Of a stretch of 37,746 nucleotides of DNA, positions 1 through 8,765 are shown one piece after another. Both the position numbers and the translations under genes were made by a program. Under the pieces are notes generated by a model. It was not told the DNA's origin. It saw nothing but the letters and a program-made list of their open reading frames with translations, and ran no database searches. Numbering within the stretch: the stretch's first letter is position 1; each line of letters opens with the position of its first letter. This DNA is from Crocinitomicaceae bacterium (lineage in GTDB: Bacteria > Bacteroidota > Bacteroidia > Flavobacteriales_D > Sanyastnellaceae), in assembly GCA_002720375.1 (NCBI GenBank), contig PBIE01000053.1, positions 1 through 37,746 on the forward strand. Direction: 5' to 3'.

Positions 1-1320
1 CGTGGAAGAGGACATGCTGATGTCCTCGTCGCCTTCCTGATAGGGCACGAAATTGAAAAAGACGAAGAACATTTCATCCCCAGTCAAGTCCCCGTAATAC
101 ACCGTTTGCGGGGGGTCATTTGGGTTAAACGGATTGTCGGCCGTGTTGTCGTAGGACGCGATGGCCTCCATCGTATACCCAGCTGGAACCTTGGTCAAGG
201 TGGGGAAGGTGAACATGCCCTGCCAATTGAAGTCCCATTCTGGAATGGAAATCAACGGAATGGTGTCCAACCCATTCGGTGAGGTGGCAAACACCTCCCA
301 GGAGGCCCCAATCAAGTGGCTGTGGGGCGTAATGTTGAGCAGGCTTAAATCAGCGGGTATGAGGTACTCGCCATGGAACGTTTTGACCTGATTTGGGGGA
401 ATCACAAACGGCTCGCCAATAGACCAAGGCCCCATAATGCCCGTGGTCACTTCCCGTTCAATTTCTTCATCACAGAAGAACAGATTCAACTCCGTCTGGT
501 CCGTCTGATCCACACCAGTAGGGCCATAGTGCATTTGCAACAGCAAATCGCTCCCGGCGGGAATTATCCGTCCCAATCCCTCCGGGTGGATTACAGCCTC
601 TATGCCCGGAGCCCAACCAGCAAAAAAGTTCTCGTAGGCATCAAACCCGAAGTCCCCAAAGCTTTCATACCCCATGCCTGGGCTCGCAGCATCCAATTCT
701 TGAGCGGTCCCAGAAATGTCAATACCAAGAATGGCGTGATGTGCGATAGCCCCATTGCCGGTGCGAACCTCAACGGCCCGAATGGCCACGTCCTCGTCAA
801 AGTCAGTTGGAATGACAAACACTTGGTACTGTTCTGTATTGTCTCCCTCATGAACGTAGGGATCGGGCATTCCGATAACCAAATCTGGTGTACCAACTTG
901 ACTCCCTTCCGGAAACACCGGCACCCCAGGATTGTCCGCCGGATTCCCCTCGGGCTTACCCGCGTCAATCCATGCGCTCAAGGTCTCAATGTCATCCTGA
1001 CTAAGGGACCGTTCACCAAGAAAATGCTGGTACTCAGGGTCAGGCGTCCAAGGGGGCATGTATCCGATGGAAGTGACATACTCGATGAACTCACCATAAG
1101 CAGCAATTTCTTCGTAAGTCGTGAAGGGCATGGGGCCAATTTCACCGGCCCGGTGACACTCCGTGCAATTCGCGTGAATGATGGGGGCGACATCGGCATG
1201 GAATGTCACCCCTTGACCGAGGGAGGTCAACACGATAGCGCTAAGAAGACCGAGAGAAAAGAAACGCAAGTACAAAGAAGTTAAGGTCTTTTGTTGAGCC
1301 GAATCCCCTCGATGGGACAT
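1..1320 (-). CDS. Secreted cytochrome c / copper type II monooxygenase-like protein, copy 2 (3' end outside window)
   Basis: The frame is open from an ATG at 1320 to the window edge (440 codons), so the C-terminus is missing. After a hydrophobic N-terminal segment (about residues 16-36) there is a haem c motif, CTECH (52-56). The rest resembles the bacterial PHM/DBM copper type II monooxygenase fold. All six expected copper ligands can be seen: HH in IAHHAIL (about 194-195), His in LLQMHY (about 264), HxH in TPHSHL (about 333/335) and Met in GDEMFF (about 417). It aligns along its whole length with the protein at 1748-3217. The proposed ATG lies 40 bp inside the 3' end of the redoxin gene, which suggests translational coupling. 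Predicted location is periplasmic or extracellular. The substrate is unknown, and hydroxylation activity is inferred from the family only. A C-terminal module like that of its paralog probably lies outside the window. Confidence 0.85.
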   Translation of the reverse strand, partial: MSHRGDSAQQKTLTSLYLRFFSLGLLSAIVLTSLGQGVTFHADVAPIIHANCTECHRAGEIGPMPFTTYEEIAAYGEFIEYVTSIGYMPPWTPDPEYQHFLGERSLSQDDIETLSAWIDAGKPEGNPADNPGVPVFPEGSQVGTPDLVIGMPDPYVHEGDNTEQYQVFVIPTDFDEDVAIRAVEVRTGNGAIAHHAILGIDISGTAQELDAASPGMGYESFGDFGFDAYENFFAGWAPGIEAVIHPEGLGRIIPAGSDLLLQMHYGPTGVDQTDQTELNLFFCDEEIEREVTTGIMGPWSIGEPFVIPPNQVKTFHGEYLIPADLSLLNITPHSHLIGASWEVFATSPNGLDTIPLISIPEWDFNWQGMFTFPTLTKVPAGYTMEAIASYDNTADNPFNPNDPPQTVYYGDLTGDEMFFVFFNFVPYQEGDEDISMSSST

Positions 1321-1757
1321 CCGACCGCATCTGTGAGTGGAATTTGGACAGGCTGACCCGACAAAACATCCCGCAACGCATGTTGCAAGTCTCTTTTGCG
1401 GGTTTTCGGCCGTCTCTTGCCAGGAGCGAAGTACCGGTCATTGAGTCTTCCGCGGTAAACAATGGAATCACGCTCGTCAATCACAAAAGCCTCAGGGGTC
1501 CATCGGGCATCGAGTTGGGATGCCCAGCCGACTGTATCGGGAAGCAGCTCCATGTTGAGTCCGTACTTGTCTCCAAACTCGGCAATCTGATCTGGCCGTG
1601 TCGAAGGGTTCGGAAAAACGCCGAAAAACTCAATGGGCTCACCACTGAACTCCTTCTCAAGCAATCGCATTTCATGGCTCATGTTCTGACATATGGGGCA
1701 GAGCGGCGCAAGAAACAAGATGACCCGCCACACGGGTTTCGCAATCGTCATTCGCAT
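1281..1757 (-). CDS. Redoxin / thioredoxin-fold protein between two copper monooxygenase-like genes
   Basis: This 158-aa protein starts on a beta strand leading into the active-site motif CPIC (residues 20-23). It continues with AhpC/TSA-like segments, including a TPEAFVID stretch around the cis-Pro region and an IVYRGRLNDR strand. It ends in a TDAVGCPIEG segment of the kind seen in redoxins associated with c-type cytochromes. I see no signal peptide, which is odd because both neighbours are exported. The start ATG at 1757 overlaps the stop of the upstream monooxygenase-like gene by 10 bp, and its 3' end overlaps the next gene by 40 bp, so the three genes look translationally coupled. In other bacteria, redoxin, cytochrome c and copper monooxygenase domains can occur in one polypeptide; here they are split. 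A disulfide-exchange or electron-transfer role for the neighbours is inference. Confidence 0.8.
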   Translation of the reverse strand: MRMTIAKPVWRVILFLAPLCPICQNMSHEMRLLEKEFSGEPIEFFGVFPNPSTRPDQIAEFGDKYGLNMELLPDTVGWASQLDARWTPEAFVIDERDSIVYRGRLNDRYFAPGKRRPKTRKRDLQHALRDVLSGQPVQIPLTDAVGCPIEGIRLNKRP

Positions 1758-3217
1758 GGGGTTCCATATTGACCGAGAAGAAAAAGAACATCAGATACAG
1801 TCACGGCATCATCCCCGTCGAGGTCGATGGAACATGCCAACAGACAGCCGAAATCAGCCAAAAGAAGAAGCACATCAGAGACCCCAACAATCAGGTCGCC
1901 GTTCAGGTCTGCAGGACAGGGGGACGTTGGTCCCAAAGCGACAGACTCATCCCCTTCCTCAAACAGGACCAAGTCGATGAACACAAAAAACATTTCATCT
2001 GTAGTGCCCTCACCAAACCCGACCCATTCGGGTGGGTCATTTGGGTTTGCGGGGTTGGATGCCGTGTTGTCATAGGTCGCCTCTCCATGCAAGGTGTAGC
2101 CTTGCGGAATCTTTTTTAGAAAGGGAAAAGTGAAATAGCCTTGCCAGTTGAAATCCCATTCTGGAATAGAAATCAAGGGGATCGTGTCTTGGTTATCCGG
2201 CGAGGTGGCATACACCAACCATGATGACCCGATCAGATGACAATGCGGAGCAATGTTCAGTAAACTGACATCATCGGTCACCGGCATGGTGCCGTGAAAA
2301 GAGGACACCTCGTTAGGAGGGAGGAGAAATGGGGCATCGAGATGCTGCGGCCCCATAATGGCCGTGTACACTTCTCGCTCAACTGGGACATCGGAAAGGA
2401 AAACGTTCACCTCTGTCAAGTCAGAAGCCTCGATAGGCGATGGGCCGTAGTGCATCTGAACCAGGACGTCTGCGCCAGAGGGAATTGTGCGGCCGATTCC
2501 TGGAGGGTAATTCACCGGTAGTGCTCCGGGCACCCAAGCACCAAAAAACGAACTCAGCGCATTGAAGCCGAATCCACCAAACCCCTCATAGCCCGGATCC
2601 GGGTCTGCGTCATCCATTTGGGCCGCAGTCCCCGAAACATCCAACCCTAAGATGGCGTGGTGCGCGACCTCATGGTTTCCAGGCAAAACCTCTAAGGCCC
2701 GAATGGAGACATCGCCATCAAAGGCCGTGGGAAGAACAAAAACCTGATACTGGTCGGTCATGTCGCCACCGTGCACATAAGGCTCCGACATGGCCAATAC
2801 ATGATCTGGCATTCCGATTTGACTTCCATCGGGGAAGTCAGGTAGTCCCGGATTGTCGTCGGAGTTGCCCTCGAGTTTACCGCCATCGACCCATGCACTC
2901 AAGGTTTCAATTTCCTCAACCGTCAAGACCTTTTCCCCCACAAAATGAGCATACTCCGAATCAGGCGTCCAAGGGGGCATATAGCCGATTGAAGTCACAT
3001 ACTCAATAAACTCGCCATAGGCCGCAACTTCAGCATAGTTCGTGAATGGCATCGGGCCGATTTGCCCCTCCCGATGACAAGAGGTGCATTCGTTAAAGAT
3101 GATTGGCGCCACATCCTCATGGAATGTCACCACTTGCGCCGATGCAAGTGAAAAGAAGCACACGGCAGCCAATAAAAAGAAACAGCGAACCAAAGGTGTT
3201 GAATTGATTGCTTTCAA
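1748..3217 (-). CDS. Secreted cytochrome c / copper type II monooxygenase-like protein with dockerin-like C-terminus, copy 1
   Basis: This is a complete 489-aa protein. A signal peptide (about residues 1-28, ending ASAQ) is followed by a haem c site, CTSCH (44-48), with Met56 or Met80 as possible axial ligand. A PHM-like copper domain then shows HH (186-187), His256 in QMHY, HxH (325/327 in PHCH) and Met409 in DEMFF, matching the CuH and CuM ligand sets of the family. Residues 434-489 form two EF-hand/dockerin-like loops with four cysteines. The start appears to be TTG at 3217: an in-frame stop lies 27 codons or fewer upstream, no ATG intervenes, and only this start gives a full signal peptide. 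It is first in a leftward three-gene set with overlapping ends. The substrate is unknown. The paralog at 1-1320 is very similar. Confidence 0.88.
   Translation of the reverse strand: MKAINSTPLVRCFFLLAAVCFFSLASAQVVTFHEDVAPIIFNECTSCHREGQIGPMPFTNYAEVAAYGEFIEYVTSIGYMPPWTPDSEYAHFVGEKVLTVEEIETLSAWVDGGKLEGNSDDNPGLPDFPDGSQIGMPDHVLAMSEPYVHGGDMTDQYQVFVLPTAFDGDVSIRALEVLPGNHEVAHHAILGLDVSGTAAQMDDADPDPGYEGFGGFGFNALSSFFGAWVPGALPVNYPPGIGRTIPSGADVLVQMHYGPSPIEASDLTEVNVFLSDVPVEREVYTAIMGPQHLDAPFLLPPNEVSSFHGTMPVTDDVSLLNIAPHCHLIGSSWLVYATSPDNQDTIPLISIPEWDFNWQGYFTFPFLKKIPQGYTLHGEATYDNTASNPANPNDPPEWVGFGEGTTDEMFFVFIDLVLFEEGDESVALGPTSPCPADLNGDLIVGVSDVLLLLADFGCLLACSIDLDGDDAVTVSDVLFLLGQYGTPCE
1751..1918 (-). other. Dockerin-like C-terminal module with four cysteines
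   Basis: Residues 434-489 of the copper monooxygenase-like protein hold two calcium-loop-like repeats (D-x-N-x-D...D and D-x-D-x-D...D) separated by FGCLLAC. The cysteines sit at 434, 458, 462 and 488, giving C-x23-C-x3-C-x25-C. The spacing is identical in the module at 7421-7585. Calcium binding is inferred from the dockerin-like pattern. A role in anchoring or sorting is speculation based on its terminal position in two unrelated exported proteins. Confidence 0.75.
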
Positions 3218-3276: not shown

Positions 3277-5037
3277 ATGCAATTGACCTCGTTGGATTGG
3301 AGTATCATCGGAATGGTGCTGGTGATTGTGTTGAGCATCGGCTGGTGGGCTGGAAAACAGGGCAAAGCCCATGCAGAAGACTATTTCCTTGGCGGACGGT
3401 CTATGCCTTGGTGGCTCCTCGGCACCTCTATGGTGGCCACCACATTCAGCGCAGACACGCCCAACCTCGTGACAGACTTGGTTCGACAACAGGGCGTGTC
3501 AGGCAACTGGGCATGGTGGGCGTTTCTGTTGACTGGGATGGTCACGGTTTTTGTCTACGCGAAACTGTGGCGCCGCTCGGGCGTGCTGACCGACATTGAA
3601 TTCTATGAGCTTCGATACGGGGGCAAGGCAGGGGCCTTCCTCCGGGGCTTCCGGGCCATATATCTAGGTTTGGTATTCAATGTCTTGGTGATGGCCACTG
3701 TTAGCCTTGCCGCCATCAAGCTCGGCAGCATTCTGCTGGGCTGGCCCGGCTGGGTGACCCTGACGGTGACATGCGGGGTCACTTTGTTCTTCAGTGTGTA
3801 TGGTGGATTGAAGGCCATCCTCTGGACCGATTTATTTCAGTTCCTCCTCGCCATGGGCGGTGCCATTGCGGCTTGTATTTACATCGTATGCCTCCCAGAA
3901 GTGGGCGGAATTGATGGGCTAATGGCCCACCCCAATGTCGTTGGCAAACTGTCTTTTTGGCCAGAGTTTGACGATCCGGACGTTTGGATTCCCGTGTTGC
4001 TCGTTCCCCTCGCCGTGCAATGGTGGGCGAGTTATTATCCGGGTGCCGAACCAGGAGGAGGGGGATACATCGCGCAGAGAATGTTCAGCGCCAAGACAGA
4101 AAAAGACGCTGTGGGTGCCACGTTGCTGTTCAATGCCGCCCACTACGCACTCCGCCCTTGGCCATGGATTTTGGTTGCCTTGGCATCATTAATCGTATTT
4201 CCAGATCTCAATTCCATTGCCACCGCTTTTCCGTCTCTTGCTGCGGATAAAGTCGGACATGATGTCGCATATCCCGCAATGCTGAGCTTGCTGCCATCGG
4301 GAATGCTTGGCTGGGTTACCGCTTCTTTGCTAGCCGCCTTTATTTCTACAATGAGCACCCAAGTCAACCTCGGTGCCAGCTACCTCGTCAACGACGTCTG
4401 GGTGCGGTTCATTAAACCAAGTGCCAGTGATGCTCAAAAGGTCGCTGCCGGTCGGTGGGCCACATTGCTCTCACTTCTGGCAGGCGCTTCCTTAAGCTTA
4501 ACACTGACTTCAGCCGTGGAGGCATTCAACCTCTTGCTTTTGCTCGGTGCGGGAACCGGCGGCTTGTTCATTCTTCGTTGGTTTTGGTGGCGTGTTTCCG
4601 CTGGAACGGAAATTGCGGCAATGATCATCTCGCTGGTTGTTGCGGTATACTTCACTTGGATCCATGACGCCCTCGGCTGGTTTCCTCTAGCGGACTGGGG
4701 AAAACTCGTGGCAGGCAGCCTCATCACAACCGCTGGCTGGGTCTTGGCGGCCTGCCTTTTGTCTCCGGAACACCCATCAGTGCTGCAGGGCTTTGTCAAT
4801 GCAGTTCATCCCGGCGGACCTGGGTGGTCAGACTACAGTCCTGAAGGGCCCGATCAAGGGGAGTGGAATGTCCCCAATTCACTGCTTCAAGCCTTTCTGG
4901 GTTGTCTCGCTGTGTATGGAGCATTGCTCGGTGTGGGCAGTGTCATTTTTGGTCATGGCTTGGCAGGCATGGTGTTTGGTGCCATCACAGGACTGAGTGT
5001 CCAAGGCATCCTTGTGCTTCAGAAAAGGACATCATGA
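3277..5037 (+). CDS. Sodium:solute symporter (SSS family)
   Basis: This 586-aa polytopic inner-membrane protein has the features of Na+/solute symporters. The N-terminus has a first helix followed by DYFLGGRSMPWW (about residues 37-48) and STSFSADTP-like sequence (MVATTFSADTP), both typical SSS signatures near the substrate and Na+ path. About 13 hydrophobic segments follow. A GGGGYIAQRMFSAK loop and a STMSTQVNLGASY segment correspond to conserved SSS regions. The ATG at 3277 gives a proper N-terminal helix. Its stop overlaps the next start (ATGA), so it is coupled to the GHMP kinase. The two downstream sugar-activation enzymes suggest a monosaccharide or uronic acid substrate, but the sequence does not identify which. 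It is divergent from the copper monooxygenase set across 59 bp. Confidence 0.9.
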   Translation: MQLTSLDWSIIGMVLVIVLSIGWWAGKQGKAHAEDYFLGGRSMPWWLLGTSMVATTFSADTPNLVTDLVRQQGVSGNWAWWAFLLTGMVTVFVYAKLWRRSGVLTDIEFYELRYGGKAGAFLRGFRAIYLGLVFNVLVMATVSLAAIKLGSILLGWPGWVTLTVTCGVTLFFSVYGGLKAILWTDLFQFLLAMGGAIAACIYIVCLPEVGGIDGLMAHPNVVGKLSFWPEFDDPDVWIPVLLVPLAVQWWASYYPGAEPGGGGYIAQRMFSAKTEKDAVGATLLFNAAHYALRPWPWILVALASLIVFPDLNSIATAFPSLAADKVGHDVAYPAMLSLLPSGMLGWVTASLLAAFISTMSTQVNLGASYLVNDVWVRFIKPSASDAQKVAAGRWATLLSLLAGASLSLTLTSAVEAFNLLLLLGAGTGGLFILRWFWWRVSAGTEIAAMIISLVVAVYFTWIHDALGWFPLADWGKLVAGSLITTAGWVLAACLLSPEHPSVLQGFVNAVHPGGPGWSDYSPEGPDQGEWNVPNSLLQAFLGCLAVYGALLGVGSVIFGHGLAGMVFGAITGLSVQGILVLQKRTS

Positions 5038-6035
5038 GGGACTTTGTCACGTCTGCTCCTGGGCGGCTCTGTCTCTTTGGCGAGCACCAAGACTACCTCG
5101 GTTTACCCGTGATTGCCATGGCAATCAACCGGCGGTGCAAACTGACATGGACGCCCCGAAGTGACACCATCGTCAAGGTGACCAGCGAAGCCTTGGGGGA
5201 CATCTTGGAGTTCGACCTAAACTCGAACACGATTTACGATACGCCATTGCATGTCGCTGTGCGAGAATTAAAAGCACACAACAAAGTTGAACAAAGGGGT
5301 ATGGGTGTGCACATCCAAAGCGACATTCCCATTCGTGCGGGATGCAGCTCATCGACGGCATTGATGACCGCATGGACAGCCGGGTGGTCGCGACTCTTCC
5401 GTGTTTCTGAACTCACAAAAGATTTGGTGCGAAGGTGCCATCGGGCCGAAGTACTTGCCTTCGGTGGCGCAGGCGGAGACATGGACCACTCTGCTTGCGC
5501 CCATGGTGGGCTTCACCGCTTCGGGCATGGTCCTGCTCAACCCTTGCCTCAATTGCCAGGTGCCTTTGTTCTTGGCGATTCAGGACAACCCAAGGACACC
5601 CAAAGACATCTGGCACGCTGCAAGGACGCTAGACTTCCGCTGATGAAGAACCTAGACGCACCACCGAACGATTGGTCCAAAGCGCAAAATGCACTGGCCA
5701 AAGGCACCCGAACCAACCGAGACCTAGAAGCGGAATGGTCAAAAAAAATGGAAACTGCACAGGTCAAAGAGAAAGCGATGGGGAAGGCACTCACCCAGCA
5801 CCACGCTGTGCTCCGTGACGTGCTCGGCCTGTCCACACCGCGTATAGAGGCCATGGCGAACGCGGCAATGCAAGCAGGCGCATGGGGCAGCAAAATCAAC
5901 GGTTCTGGCGGCGGTGGATGCATGTTCGCTTATGCGCCTTCCGACAGGGTAGACGCCATCATTGAAGCCATGCTTCAAGCCGGCGCAAAAGGAGCTTGGC
6001 ATGTCAAACCCGACCACGGAGTATTGTATGAATAA
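5034..6035 (+). CDS. GHMP-family sugar-1-kinase (galactokinase-like)
   Basis: A 333-aa cytosolic kinase predicted to phosphorylate the anomeric position of a sugar with ATP. The N-terminal galactokinase-type signature GRLCLFGEHQDYLG (residues 10-23) is followed by the GHMP ATP loop around GCSSSTA (103-109). A galactokinase-like GGDMDH segment holds the likely catalytic base Asp151, and the third GHMP motif GSGGGG is near residues 290-295. The true start is the ATG at 5034, overlapping the symporter stop. An upstream ATG at 4863 in the same frame would put 57 residues inside the symporter gene and is rejected. It ends 8 bp inside the nucleotidyltransferase gene. The GEHQDYLG motif and Asp151 favour a galactokinase relative over mevalonate kinase. 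The actual sugar (galactose, a uronic acid, arabinose or fucose) is undetermined. Confidence 0.82.
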   Translation: MRDFVTSAPGRLCLFGEHQDYLGLPVIAMAINRRCKLTWTPRSDTIVKVTSEALGDILEFDLNSNTIYDTPLHVAVRELKAHNKVEQRGMGVHIQSDIPIRAGCSSSTALMTAWTAGWSRLFRVSELTKDLVRRCHRAEVLAFGGAGGDMDHSACAHGGLHRFGHGPAQPLPQLPGAFVLGDSGQPKDTQRHLARCKDARLPLMKNLDAPPNDWSKAQNALAKGTRTNRDLEAEWSKKMETAQVKEKAMGKALTQHHAVLRDVLGLSTPRIEAMANAAMQAGAWGSKINGSGGGGCMFAYAPSDRVDAIIEAMLQAGAKGAWHVKPDHGVLYE

Positions 6036-6876
6036 TTTGAACCCCCTCATTATCATGGCCGCTGGAAAGGGAAGCAGGATGCGCTCAGGGGGCAACCTGC
6101 CTGATTGGGTTATTGAAGAAGCCGCTTCGAGACCGAAGGCCATGATCAGACTGGGAAAGGAACGGAAGCCCTTATTGGAGCATCTTGTAGAACAAGCCAA
6201 GTCCGAGGGCCTGCGCAACATCTGTATCGTGATCGGTGAAGAAGACGAAGTCACACCTTCACATTTTGATGCCCATCCGGTGACAGACATCACATTGGAC
6301 TTCGTGGTTCAACGGATTGCGCCGGGCCGAAACAAGCCGGAGGGAACCGCTGAAGCTGTGGAGCTGGCGCTTGACAATTACCCGACATGGAAGGACAGCT
6401 CCGTCACGGTGGCCAACGGAGACAATCTACCCCCAAAAGGCATGTTCCTCGCCATGCAATGTCACCCATGTTGCGTGCCTGCGTTTAACAGCACCCATAT
6501 TGGGCTTCCCCAAGAGCGGGTTCGCGCCTTTGCTGTCATTCGCAGGGGAGATGACGGTGCCCTCATTGGAATTGACGAAAAACCAGACGAACAGACGGTT
6601 GAAGCTTCCCGGTGGAAAGACGGCACTGTCCGGGTCAGCATGAACTATTTCCGCATGCCGTATTCCGATTTGCTCGAAGCAGTCCGGAAGGCGCCGTTGC
6701 ATCCCCAGCGAATGGAGAGAGAACTACCAGTGGCTGTATCCAGTTGGTCAGCACGTCATCCTGGACAAATTCAAGTTTTGCCTTCAGCCGGGGCTTTCTT
6801 GGATTTGACCCATCCTGAAGACATCCTGACCGCAGGGCTAAAATTGGACAAGGGAGGATTTCAACTTCGCGATTGA
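6028..6876 (+). CDS. Sugar-1-phosphate nucleotidyltransferase (NTP_transferase family)
   Basis: A 282-aa GT-A-fold nucleotidyltransferase. It has the nucleotide-binding AAGKGSRM motif (residues 11-18), the RPKAM lysine segment (35-39), a PEGTAEAV base- or sugar-recognition segment (104-111) and the metal-binding aspartate in ANGDNL (129-134). The family couples a sugar-1-phosphate and an NTP to give an NDP-sugar plus pyrophosphate. The ATG at 6028 overlaps the kinase stop by 8 bp, and an earlier in-frame ATG at 5962 would extend into the kinase. The context (symporter, 1-kinase, nucleotidyltransferase in one coupled unit) indicates salvage of an imported sugar into an activated donor. A 16-residue insertion between the glycine loop and the PKAM motif is notable and may help define specificity. 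Base and sugar specificity cannot be read from the sequence. Confidence 0.85.
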   Translation: MNNLNPLIIMAAGKGSRMRSGGNLPDWVIEEAASRPKAMIRLGKERKPLLEHLVEQAKSEGLRNICIVIGEEDEVTPSHFDAHPVTDITLDFVVQRIAPGRNKPEGTAEAVELALDNYPTWKDSSVTVANGDNLPPKGMFLAMQCHPCCVPAFNSTHIGLPQERVRAFAVIRRGDDGALIGIDEKPDEQTVEASRWKDGTVRVSMNYFRMPYSDLLEAVRKAPLHPQRMERELPVAVSSWSARHPGQIQVLPSAGAFLDLTHPEDILTAGLKLDKGGFQLRD

Positions 6877-6907
6877 ACCTAATTCGACTTTAAATTGTCA
6901 TTTCGCT

Positions 6908-7588
6908 ATGAATGTGCAATCCATACCTGTTTTCGGCCTGTTCATGCTCTTTATTTTATCGCTTGGGAATCATAACGTTGGAGCCGCTCAATGCAACACC
7001 GATGACTTCGCCTTGTTGTGCAATGATGGGAACGCAGTCAATGACGCAGTGTTCAATTGCGGCTTCTCTTGCTTTTTGTCCAGCGACATCACGTCTTGCT
7101 TTGCCGAATGCATCTCGGATGCAATACCAGAAATGAGCAGTGGCTGCGTGGGCTGCTTTGCTGACCAAAGCACCTGCGTGACCAACAGCTGCTTTCTCAC
7201 CTGCGCTTTTGGCAGCGAGGCGGACTGCGAAGCTTGTGTTCAGACCAATTGTCAATCCGGCTTCGAAACGTGCGCCGGCATCGTGGATTTAGATGGCGAT
7301 GGGGAGTCCACCGTTTGCGACTGCGACGACGCCAACTCGAGCGTATATCCAGGGGCTCCTGGAACAGCGCAGGGGGTAGACAACAATTGTGATGGCACCC
7401 TGTCGCCCGAAGAACTCGCATGTCAGCTCGATCTCAATGCTGATGGGATTATAACCGTGTCTGATGTATTGACTGTGCTCGCCGAGTTCGGTTGTTTAGT
7501 TGACTGCACAGCAGACGTAAATGGAGATGGCACCGTGACAGTCGCTGACATCCTTGAGATGCTCGGTGGTTTCGGATCAGATTGCTAA
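6908..7588 (+). CDS. Secreted cysteine-rich protein with MopE-like motif and dockerin-like C-terminus
   Basis: This 226-aa protein has a signal peptide (about residues 1-27, cleavage near GAA/Q). The mature part has 22 cysteines. Residues 29-122 contain 15 of them, many as CxxxC or CxxC pairs (51/55, 64/68, 80/83, 95/99, 107/110). Residues 127-163 match the putative metal-binding repeat seen in MopE-type proteins: a DxDGD start, CDCDDAN, a YPGA step and DNNCDG. Residues 172-226 are a four-cysteine dockerin-like module like that at 1751-1918. No catalytic domain is recognised. It starts 31 bp after the nucleotidyltransferase, so it may share that transcript, but nothing links it functionally. 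It could be a metal-binding or disulfide-stabilised surface protein; metal binding is inferred. Confidence 0.8.
   Translation: MNVQSIPVFGLFMLFILSLGNHNVGAAQCNTDDFALLCNDGNAVNDAVFNCGFSCFLSSDITSCFAECISDAIPEMSSGCVGCFADQSTCVTNSCFLTCAFGSEADCEACVQTNCQSGFETCAGIVDLDGDGESTVCDCDDANSSVYPGAPGTAQGVDNNCDGTLSPEELACQLDLNADGIITVSDVLTVLAEFGCLVDCTADVNGDGTVTVADILEMLGGFGSDC
7421..7585 (+). other. Dockerin-like C-terminal module with four cysteines
   Basis: Residues 172-226 of the cysteine-rich protein. Two loops with D-x-N-x-D-G and a trailing S/A-D flank the FGCLVDC linker, and the protein ends on the fourth cysteine. The C-x23-C-x3-C-x25-C spacing equals that at 1751-1918. The host proteins are otherwise unrelated, so the module behaves as an independent C-terminal unit. 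Confidence 0.75.
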
Positions 7589-7595
7589 GCCAGAA

Positions 7596-8765
7596 TCAAC
7601 GGAAAAACCCACGCTGCTCTTGGGCACATTGACGGAGCAGGGGGCTGCAGCGGTAACGTTCTTCGCCATAGCGCGCTCTAAGCCCATCTAAGGTTTCAAC
7701 ACAGCGATCTATACCCACTTCCTCTGCCCATTTCAAAAGGCCTTTGGGGTAATTGACACCACCTTGCATCGCGCGGTCTACATCTTCAGGACTGGCTACA
7801 CCCCAGAACACAGCGTCTGCAGCCTCATTGATGAGCATCACCAAAATGCGCCACAGTATGTCTTGCCCTAAGTCCTTGTCTCGTCGGGGTTCAGCGCGCT
7901 TCGCACCGTCGCCGTGAATATGCCATCCGCGGCCGGATTTGCGCCCCAACCAACCCGCGTCCACATTCCGCTTTTGCGAAAATGATGGTGTATACCTCGG
8001 ATCGTGGTGAAAGGCCTTCCAAACGCTTTCCGTTACGGCGTAATTGATGTCGTTGCCAATTAGATCCATCAAATCAAAGGGGCCCATACGAAAACCGCCA
8101 AGCTCTGTCATGGCCCAATCGATGGTCGCGATGTCCGCTACACCCTCTTCATACAGACGAATCGCTTCACCATAAAATGGCCTTGCGACGCGGTTAACGA
8201 TAAAGCCAGGGGTGTCCTTGGCCACAGCGGGTTGCTTGCCCCAATCCCTCATCAACGTCGCCATCTCCTCTACCAAACCGTCTTTCGTCTGCAATGCAGG
8301 CACGACCTCAACCAAGGGCAGGAGGGGAGCGGGATTGAAAAAGTGAAGGCCGATCAATCGATGAGGCGAATGCAAGCCAGCGGCCAACCGCGTGATGGAC
8401 AAGCTCGATGTGTTGCTCGCCAAAATCGCGTCGCTGGAAACCACAGATTCCAGTGCGGCAAACAGGCCTTGTTTAACCGCCTCGTCCTCCACCACGGCTT
8501 CGATGACCAAGCCACTTTGGGTACACGCGGTCACGTTTGTGGCGGTGCGGATACGACCCAAGATTCTTCCGGGTTCACCGGCATCAAGCCGCCCCTTCTC
8601 TACGAGCCGCTTAAAAATGCGATCGAGATTGGCCATTGCTCGCTTCAAGGCGGATTCGTCGCGGTCAACAAGGACCACACTGTGCCCAGCTGTAGCAGCG
8701 ATTTGGGCGATGCCCTGGCCCATGGTTCCCGCGCCTACGACGCCGACCTCAATGTTCTGTTCCAT
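7596..8765 (-). CDS. 3-hydroxyacyl-CoA dehydrogenase (3-hydroxybutyryl-CoA dehydrogenase type)
   Basis: A 389-aa NAD-dependent dehydrogenase oxidising 3-hydroxyacyl-CoA to 3-oxoacyl-CoA. The Rossmann motif GAGTMGQG (about residues 10-17) and a VDRDESAL acidic turn bind NAD. The SNTSSLS serine region, GLHFFNPAP with the catalytic His, and DTPGFIVNR with a conserved Asn follow. There are two C-terminal 3HCDH domains: one around FRMGPFDLMDLIG, and a second around 300-370 with GVNYPKGLLKWAEE. This arrangement resembles PaaH-type enzymes of phenylacetate and fatty-acid catabolism, but the protein is shorter than the roughly 500-aa PaaH. A GTG one codon upstream is possible; the ATG at 8765 is preferred. 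It converges on the cysteine-rich gene with a 7-bp gap. No paa genes are nearby. Confidence 0.9.
   Translation of the reverse strand: MEQNIEVGVVGAGTMGQGIAQIAATAGHSVVLVDRDESALKRAMANLDRIFKRLVEKGRLDAGEPGRILGRIRTATNVTACTQSGLVIEAVVEDEAVKQGLFAALESVVSSDAILASNTSSLSITRLAAGLHSPHRLIGLHFFNPAPLLPLVEVVPALQTKDGLVEEMATLMRDWGKQPAVAKDTPGFIVNRVARPFYGEAIRLYEEGVADIATIDWAMTELGGFRMGPFDLMDLIGNDINYAVTESVWKAFHHDPRYTPSFSQKRNVDAGWLGRKSGRGWHIHGDGAKRAEPRRDKDLGQDILWRILVMLINEAADAVFWGVASPEDVDRAMQGGVNYPKGLLKWAEEVGIDRCVETLDGLRARYGEERYRCSPLLRQCAQEQRGFFR

Follow-up and report, generated by a model that had tools for sequence, protein, structure and literature searches.

Organization of the locus

The window, that is, the whole stretch of 37,746 nucleotides that was analysed, comes from a marine bacterium of Flavobacteriales type. 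Three separate genes, in the order A, R and B and not one three-domain chain, lie on the minus strand of positions 1-3217, in agreement with a preliminary description of two cytochrome c/PHM-type paralogues placed around a CPIC redoxin.

1751..3217 (-): gene A, 489 amino acids; signal peptide, mono-haem cytochrome c, PHM/DBH-type dicopper domain and C-terminal dockerin-like domain
3217 (-): TTG start of gene A; alternative TTG at 3193
1281..1751 (-): gene R, 156 amino acids; thioredoxin-fold redoxin of the 2cvb / PRX-like type, without signal peptide
1748..1751 (-): ATGA, in which the probable R start and the A stop share 4 bp (sequence and orthologue comparison)
1..1269 (-): gene B, truncated at the contig end; cytochrome c-PHM architecture as in A

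Gene A is complete, with its stop codon at 1748-1750, and the C-terminus of B falls outside the window because the start of the window is the end of contig C53. Overlaps of 10 and 40 bp had been reported between the genes; these proved to be artefacts of longest-ORF starts, and comparison with orthologues gave a 4-bp ATGA overlap between A and R and none between R and B. The mechanical start of R is at 1757, and its second ATG (the Met at 1751 here) is the only one kept in L048 and L058. For B, the mechanical ATG at 1320 shares bases with the codon for the invariant VGC cysteine in R; the probable start is the TTG at 1269, and orthologues of B begin after the R stop at the equivalent position, which leaves a small gap between the two genes. 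From the ATGA overlap we infer that A and R may be translationally coupled.

The A-R-B order was found again in roughly twelve genomes of the genus. Median dN/dS values were ~0.075 for A, 0.12 for R and 0.066 for B, calculated on unsaturated pairs only as most pairs were saturated at synonymous sites, and they indicated purifying selection on all three genes. Given this recurrence and this selection, the arrangement is not due to chance. Positions 3277-7588 of the window contain divergent sodium:solute symporter, small-molecule kinase and nucleotidyltransferase genes, which are syntenic with A-R-B through the genus.

Haem and copper sites of A and B

Exported cytochrome c-PHM-type monooxygenases are referred to below as P. 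The sample consisted of the top 80 named loci and close relatives, with 127 P in total.

3074..3088 (-): A, haem-binding CTSCH; CxxCH in 127/127
2978..2980 (-): A, Met of MPPW, putative distal haem ligand; conserved in 126/127
2657..2662 (-): A, CuH ligands His-His; 127/127
2450..2452 (-): A, CuH ligand His of MHYG; 127/127
2237..2245 (-): A, CuM ligands His-x-His of PHCH; 127/127
1991..1993 (-): A, CuM ligand Met of DEM; 127/127
1153..1167 (-): B, haem-binding CTECH; 127/127
736..741 (-): B, CuH ligands His-His; alignment of 127
529..531 (-): B, CuH ligand His; alignment of 127
316..324 (-): B, CuM ligands His-x-His of PHSH; alignment of 127
70..72 (-): B, CuM ligand Met of DEM; alignment of 127

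The CxxCH motif and the six PHM-type copper ligands first noticed in both proteins were fully borne out, as nine residues (Cys, Cys and His of CxxCH, the three His of CuH, and the two His and one Met of CuM) did not vary in any of the 127 aligned relatives. A profile built on 28 relatives and searched against solved structures matched human DBH (4zel, 1.4e-7) and rat PHM (1opm, 4.7e-5), with the His ligands aligned. The AlphaFold model of A was confident (pLDDT 88.8, pTM 0.85) and PHM-like: structural matching of this AF2 model by VIA-align gave Z scores of 20-21 over about 255-290 residues with PHM and 20.7 with DBH, unrelated folds remaining below 8, which places the CuH/CuM double beta-sandwich fold in A. 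Taken alone, the window A and B were below the Pfam Cu2_monooxygen and Cu2_monoox_C cut-offs; 21 of the 28 relatives match Cu2_monoox_C. The cytochrome region of the window proteins reached 17 bits for a Pfam cut-off of 27, and the features of a c-type cytochrome were read from the sequence alignment, with CxxCH in all 127 proteins and the candidate distal Met in all except one. Cytochrome assembly genes are present in the host genome.

In PHM, Arg240 contacts the peptide carboxylate of the substrate. Among the relatives, A, F, N, T or V is found at the aligned position, which makes peptide amidation by A or B unlikely. Cysteines are scarce in the P cores, mostly 0-2 besides CxxCH, which ruled out R as a disulfide isomerase for P.

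Export and C-terminal tails of A and B

3137..3217 (-): A, signal peptide ending SLASA before Q (sequence)
1751..1927 (-): A, dockerin-like C-terminal domain, below the NCBIfam cut-off

The end of the A signal peptide, SLASA followed by Q, agrees with the Bacteroidetes Q-rule (PMC5837995). For gene A, scores against the GC-type dockerin NF041540 were 15.9-24.9 bits (cut-off 29). The dockerin-like tail of A also occurs at about 15-16 other places of the genome (17 matches including A), for example at 7415-7585; no cohesin was found in the host genome. These tails coexist with 26 T9SS tails in the same genome and are perhaps a second surface-anchoring tail. The tail of the window B is beyond the contig; orthologues of B gave 16-22 bits with the T9SS sorting domain TIGR04183 (cut-off 23) and other relatives 28-32. 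Both proteins are predicted to be exported, probably to the cell surface or in a surface-attached form. A periplasmic system had been suggested previously. Its exported part stands for A and B, and the term itself is a poor fit because R has no export signal, being most likely cytoplasmic, and because A itself and the relatives of B end with C-terminal surface-sorting or anchoring domains.

Fold and active site of the redoxin R

1689..1700 (-): R, CPIC; first Cys in 63/63, second Cys in 21/21 of the signal-less clade and 27/42 elsewhere (exported forms)
1317..1319 (-): R, Cys of the C-terminal VGCPIE motif; invariant, 63/63

R matches the AhpC-TSA profile. Its model (pLDDT 90.8) was closest to the Thermus 2cvb group of structures, with Z scores of 17-18 (18.3 for 2cvb), the next group being below 12. 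True peroxiredoxins have the peroxidatic motif PxxxT/SxxC. R was rejected as one of them, for its site reads FLAPLCPICQN and the NCBIfam peroxidase profile gave 12 bits for a cut-off of 140. The protein carries the features of the PRX-like and 2cvb proteins, namely a Trx fold, the first Cys of CxxC, a cis-Pro (invariant over 63 relatives) and a C-terminal GC motif, and we take this PRX-like type to be CDD PRX_like1. R looks like the PRX-like type of PMC3514251, which has been described without the peroxiredoxin triad. Selenocysteine was considered at the in-frame TGA of G117 and G122 and discarded, this TGA being an ordinary stop after GCPIE. Production of an A-R fusion by frameshifting or readthrough was excluded by the frame and by intervening in-frame stops in L052, L060, L089 and L184.

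Association of R with the monooxygenases

R is adjacent to or fused with P in 76 cases out of 127 (50 upstream, 22 downstream, 1 counted as both and 3 fused); in the one case counted as both, a stretch of unknown bases interrupts the frame of R. The other 51 P, some located at contig ends, are without R; 25 of the 51 group in a single R-less clade, which indicates that R is unnecessary for P function in general. An R orthologue is present in 56 of the 114 genomes of the window's family and adjoins a monooxygenase in 55 of them, including G118 where it is adjacent at a contig end (L174); G024 has the single orthologue located away from P. Co-occurrence across genomes, which the preliminary description had left to such a comparison, is therefore strong. 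The hosts of P include Bacteroidota, Kapaibacteria, Ignavibacteria, Latescibacterota, Verrucomicrobiota, Planctomycetota, Armatimonadota, Acidobacteriota and Rokubacteria. No third conserved partner gene was detected, and R and P form a two-gene module, because the co-directional neighbours of R/P loci share no common family. The sequence comparison thus identifies the redoxin-monooxygenase pair as a widespread conserved module. Members of genus g14 (e.g. G124:C2:30276-33043) have tandem monooxygenase pairs without redoxin orthologue and provide a natural contrast for the role of R. Within the library covered, our literature search found no study of a redoxin-monooxygenase module and no biochemical study of cytochrome-fused bacterial PHM/DBH relatives.

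Duplication of the monooxygenase

The proposed duplication into a pair was supported by the tree, in which A and B are sister clades (98%); on this ground, sequence analysis places the duplication near the root of the genus and the neighbour genus g3. In L058 (G008; 8172-8286), A is cleanly absent between the transporter gene and R; the R-B pair is kept, with R first and still without signal peptide. In L169 (G013; 809-2243), A is broken over three frames and R is intact, reflecting either real decay or an assembly error.

DNA identity between the window and L049 (G001) was 81-91% in B from about position 1130 down (window 1-1130) and 58-80% in A, R and the transporter gene. Between G001 and G009 (L048), it was mostly 80-94% in the transporter gene and A, and 56-75% in B. 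These identities suggest that B was exchanged by recombination, a breakpoint lying within its coding sequence.

Loss of the export signal of R

The lack of a signal peptide on R had been pointed out from the window alone. It held for every possible start, because an in-frame stop is found 11 codons before the first ATG, and it was further found to be a derived state: signal-less redoxins form one clade (21/21, support 99%), and all of the 42 redoxins elsewhere have a signal peptide or a lipobox. These assignments relied on hydrophobicity and on inspection instead of a trained predictor; L098, L108, L113 and L123, marked as signal-less by the script, have plain hydrophobic leaders and were counted by eye as carrying signal peptides. 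An upstream start of R that would provide a signal peptide was looked for and found in none of the 21 clade members. Twenty extra loci were consistent with this distribution, with 15 P-R loci without signal (g3, g5) and 5 R-P loci with signal (g9, g11, g12).

The simplest reading of these sequences is a single loss of the R signal, at or close to the event that placed R behind P, and this loss on one branch is the new finding here. The active site and the operon position of R persist despite it. The P-R gene order was rejected as the cause of the loss, since P-R loci with signals exist (L094, L096, L107, L112, L117) and order alone thus does not force it; gene order and signal changed together once, so that cause and effect are inseparable. 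R is most likely cytoplasmic in the window lineage, as judged from its sequence, and with the export signal lost it probably acts across the membrane from A and B. The Cys of PHCH (codon 2240-2242 in A), between the CuM histidines, is mostly limited to the lineage with signal-less redoxins, most other proteins having Met at this position.

Proposed mechanism

We propose that A-R-B is an operon derived from a conserved module of P and its dedicated R, in which P has been duplicated and R is now most likely cytoplasmic, and we give this explanation as a whole a probability of roughly 0.6. It is carried by the architecture, ligand invariance, fold, linkage, duplication and single loss of the export signal described above. 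The duplication of P in the window lineage would have produced A, with a dockerin-like tail, and B, with the T9SS-type tail of its orthologues. The three genes would be transcribed together, and A and B would be exported by Sec before haem attachment. As suggested by the fusion of the two domains, the haem of the N-terminal cytochrome may pass electrons to CuH, replacing the ascorbate of animal PHM and DBH. In these enzymes CuH is the electron-transfer site and CuM the O2 site (PMC4846438). Electrons would then move from CuH to CuM, where O2 would hydroxylate a C-H bond of an extracellular substrate. R would be a PRX-like thiol-disulfide protein in which the first Cys of CPIC pairs with the second one or with the invariant VGC Cys, and in most relatives it would be exported together with P. 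A cytoplasmic R would have no direct access to mature A and B, which speaks against the explanation; it might, for example, act on the unfolded monooxygenase before export, or serve the thiol homeostasis of the same physiology.

Alternative explanations

R could be a cytoplasmic maturation or holding factor that keeps the haem-site and CuM-site cysteines of the pre-export monooxygenase reduced, with coupling ensuring co-synthesis. We consider this unlikely in that precise form. The ATGA junction, the retention of both CPIC cysteines in every member of the signal-less lineage vs 27 of the 42 other redoxins, and the concentration of the PHCH Cys in the same lineage are in its favour; however, this Cys is missing from several B of the lineage, including the window B (PHSH), its co-occurrence with signal-less redoxins amounts to one or two evolutionary events, and G008, which has no A, retains R-B. 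It is equally doubtful that R was relocated once from the envelope to the cytoplasm, retaining operon and active site, and has become a cytoplasmic thiol guardian of the monooxygenase before export.

Improbable, too, is a continued, non-classical export of R, either with its first beta-strand MTIAKPVWRVILFLAPL as an uncleaved signal or by carriage with another protein, so that it would serve A and B on the outside like its counterparts in other lineages. R has retained its active site and its gene still adjoins those of exported partners, and every relative outside the signal-less clade has an export signal. However, in the R model the hydrophobic stretch forms the first beta-strand of the core, the protein of genus g5 begins MWKVWVFLAPLCPIC so that no n-region is left, and in-frame fusion to P is impossible where stops intervene (L052, L089, L184).

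We likewise hold it improbable that A and B are electron-transfer or copper-binding proteins, not oxygenases, which have retained the ligands: the equivalent of PHM Arg240 is not conserved, but the full set of six ligands, with the CuM Met, does not vary across many phyla, beyond the needs of a carrier.

Finally, the trio is very unlikely to be the split form of an ancestral redoxin-cytochrome-monooxygenase fusion, as initially proposed, since fusions of the same domain order do exist (L131, Armatimonadota; L132, Planctomycetota; L143, unclassified bacterium) but are rare (3/127) and confined to one distant branch, separate adjacent genes being the common state, so that the fusion-first order is not supported as worded.

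Comparison with known systems

About eight bacterial phyla contain cytochrome-fused relatives of the animal enzymes that hydroxylate peptides and dopamine, and the recurrent redoxin partner of these proteins offers a handle on the maturation or reduction of such dicopper enzymes without ascorbate. The signal loss on one branch amounts to a natural experiment, and comparison of R-P with P-R lineages can reveal whether the redoxin works on the inner or the outer side of the membrane.

PHM (1opm, 1phm) has the same two-domain CuH/CuM fold as A and B (Z about 20-21) and all six ligands, whereas A and B are bacterial and exported, with a cytochrome c fused in front and no conserved Arg at the Arg240 position. 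Human DBH (4zel; PMC4846438), the best sequence match, likewise combines the CuH/CuM core with an extra N-terminal domain; this domain is however a DOMON, and the enzyme is ascorbate-dependent and disulfide-rich, in contrast with the cytochrome c and the few core cysteines of A and B. The Thermus proteins 2cvb/2ywo, 3u5r and 2ywi share with R the fold (Z 17-18), the first Cys of CxxC and the C-terminal GC motif, but the second CxxC Cys is absent from 2cvb as aligned. The three fusions have the same three domains as the window trio, in the order R-cytochrome-PHM, and differ from it in being single polypeptides found in other phyla.
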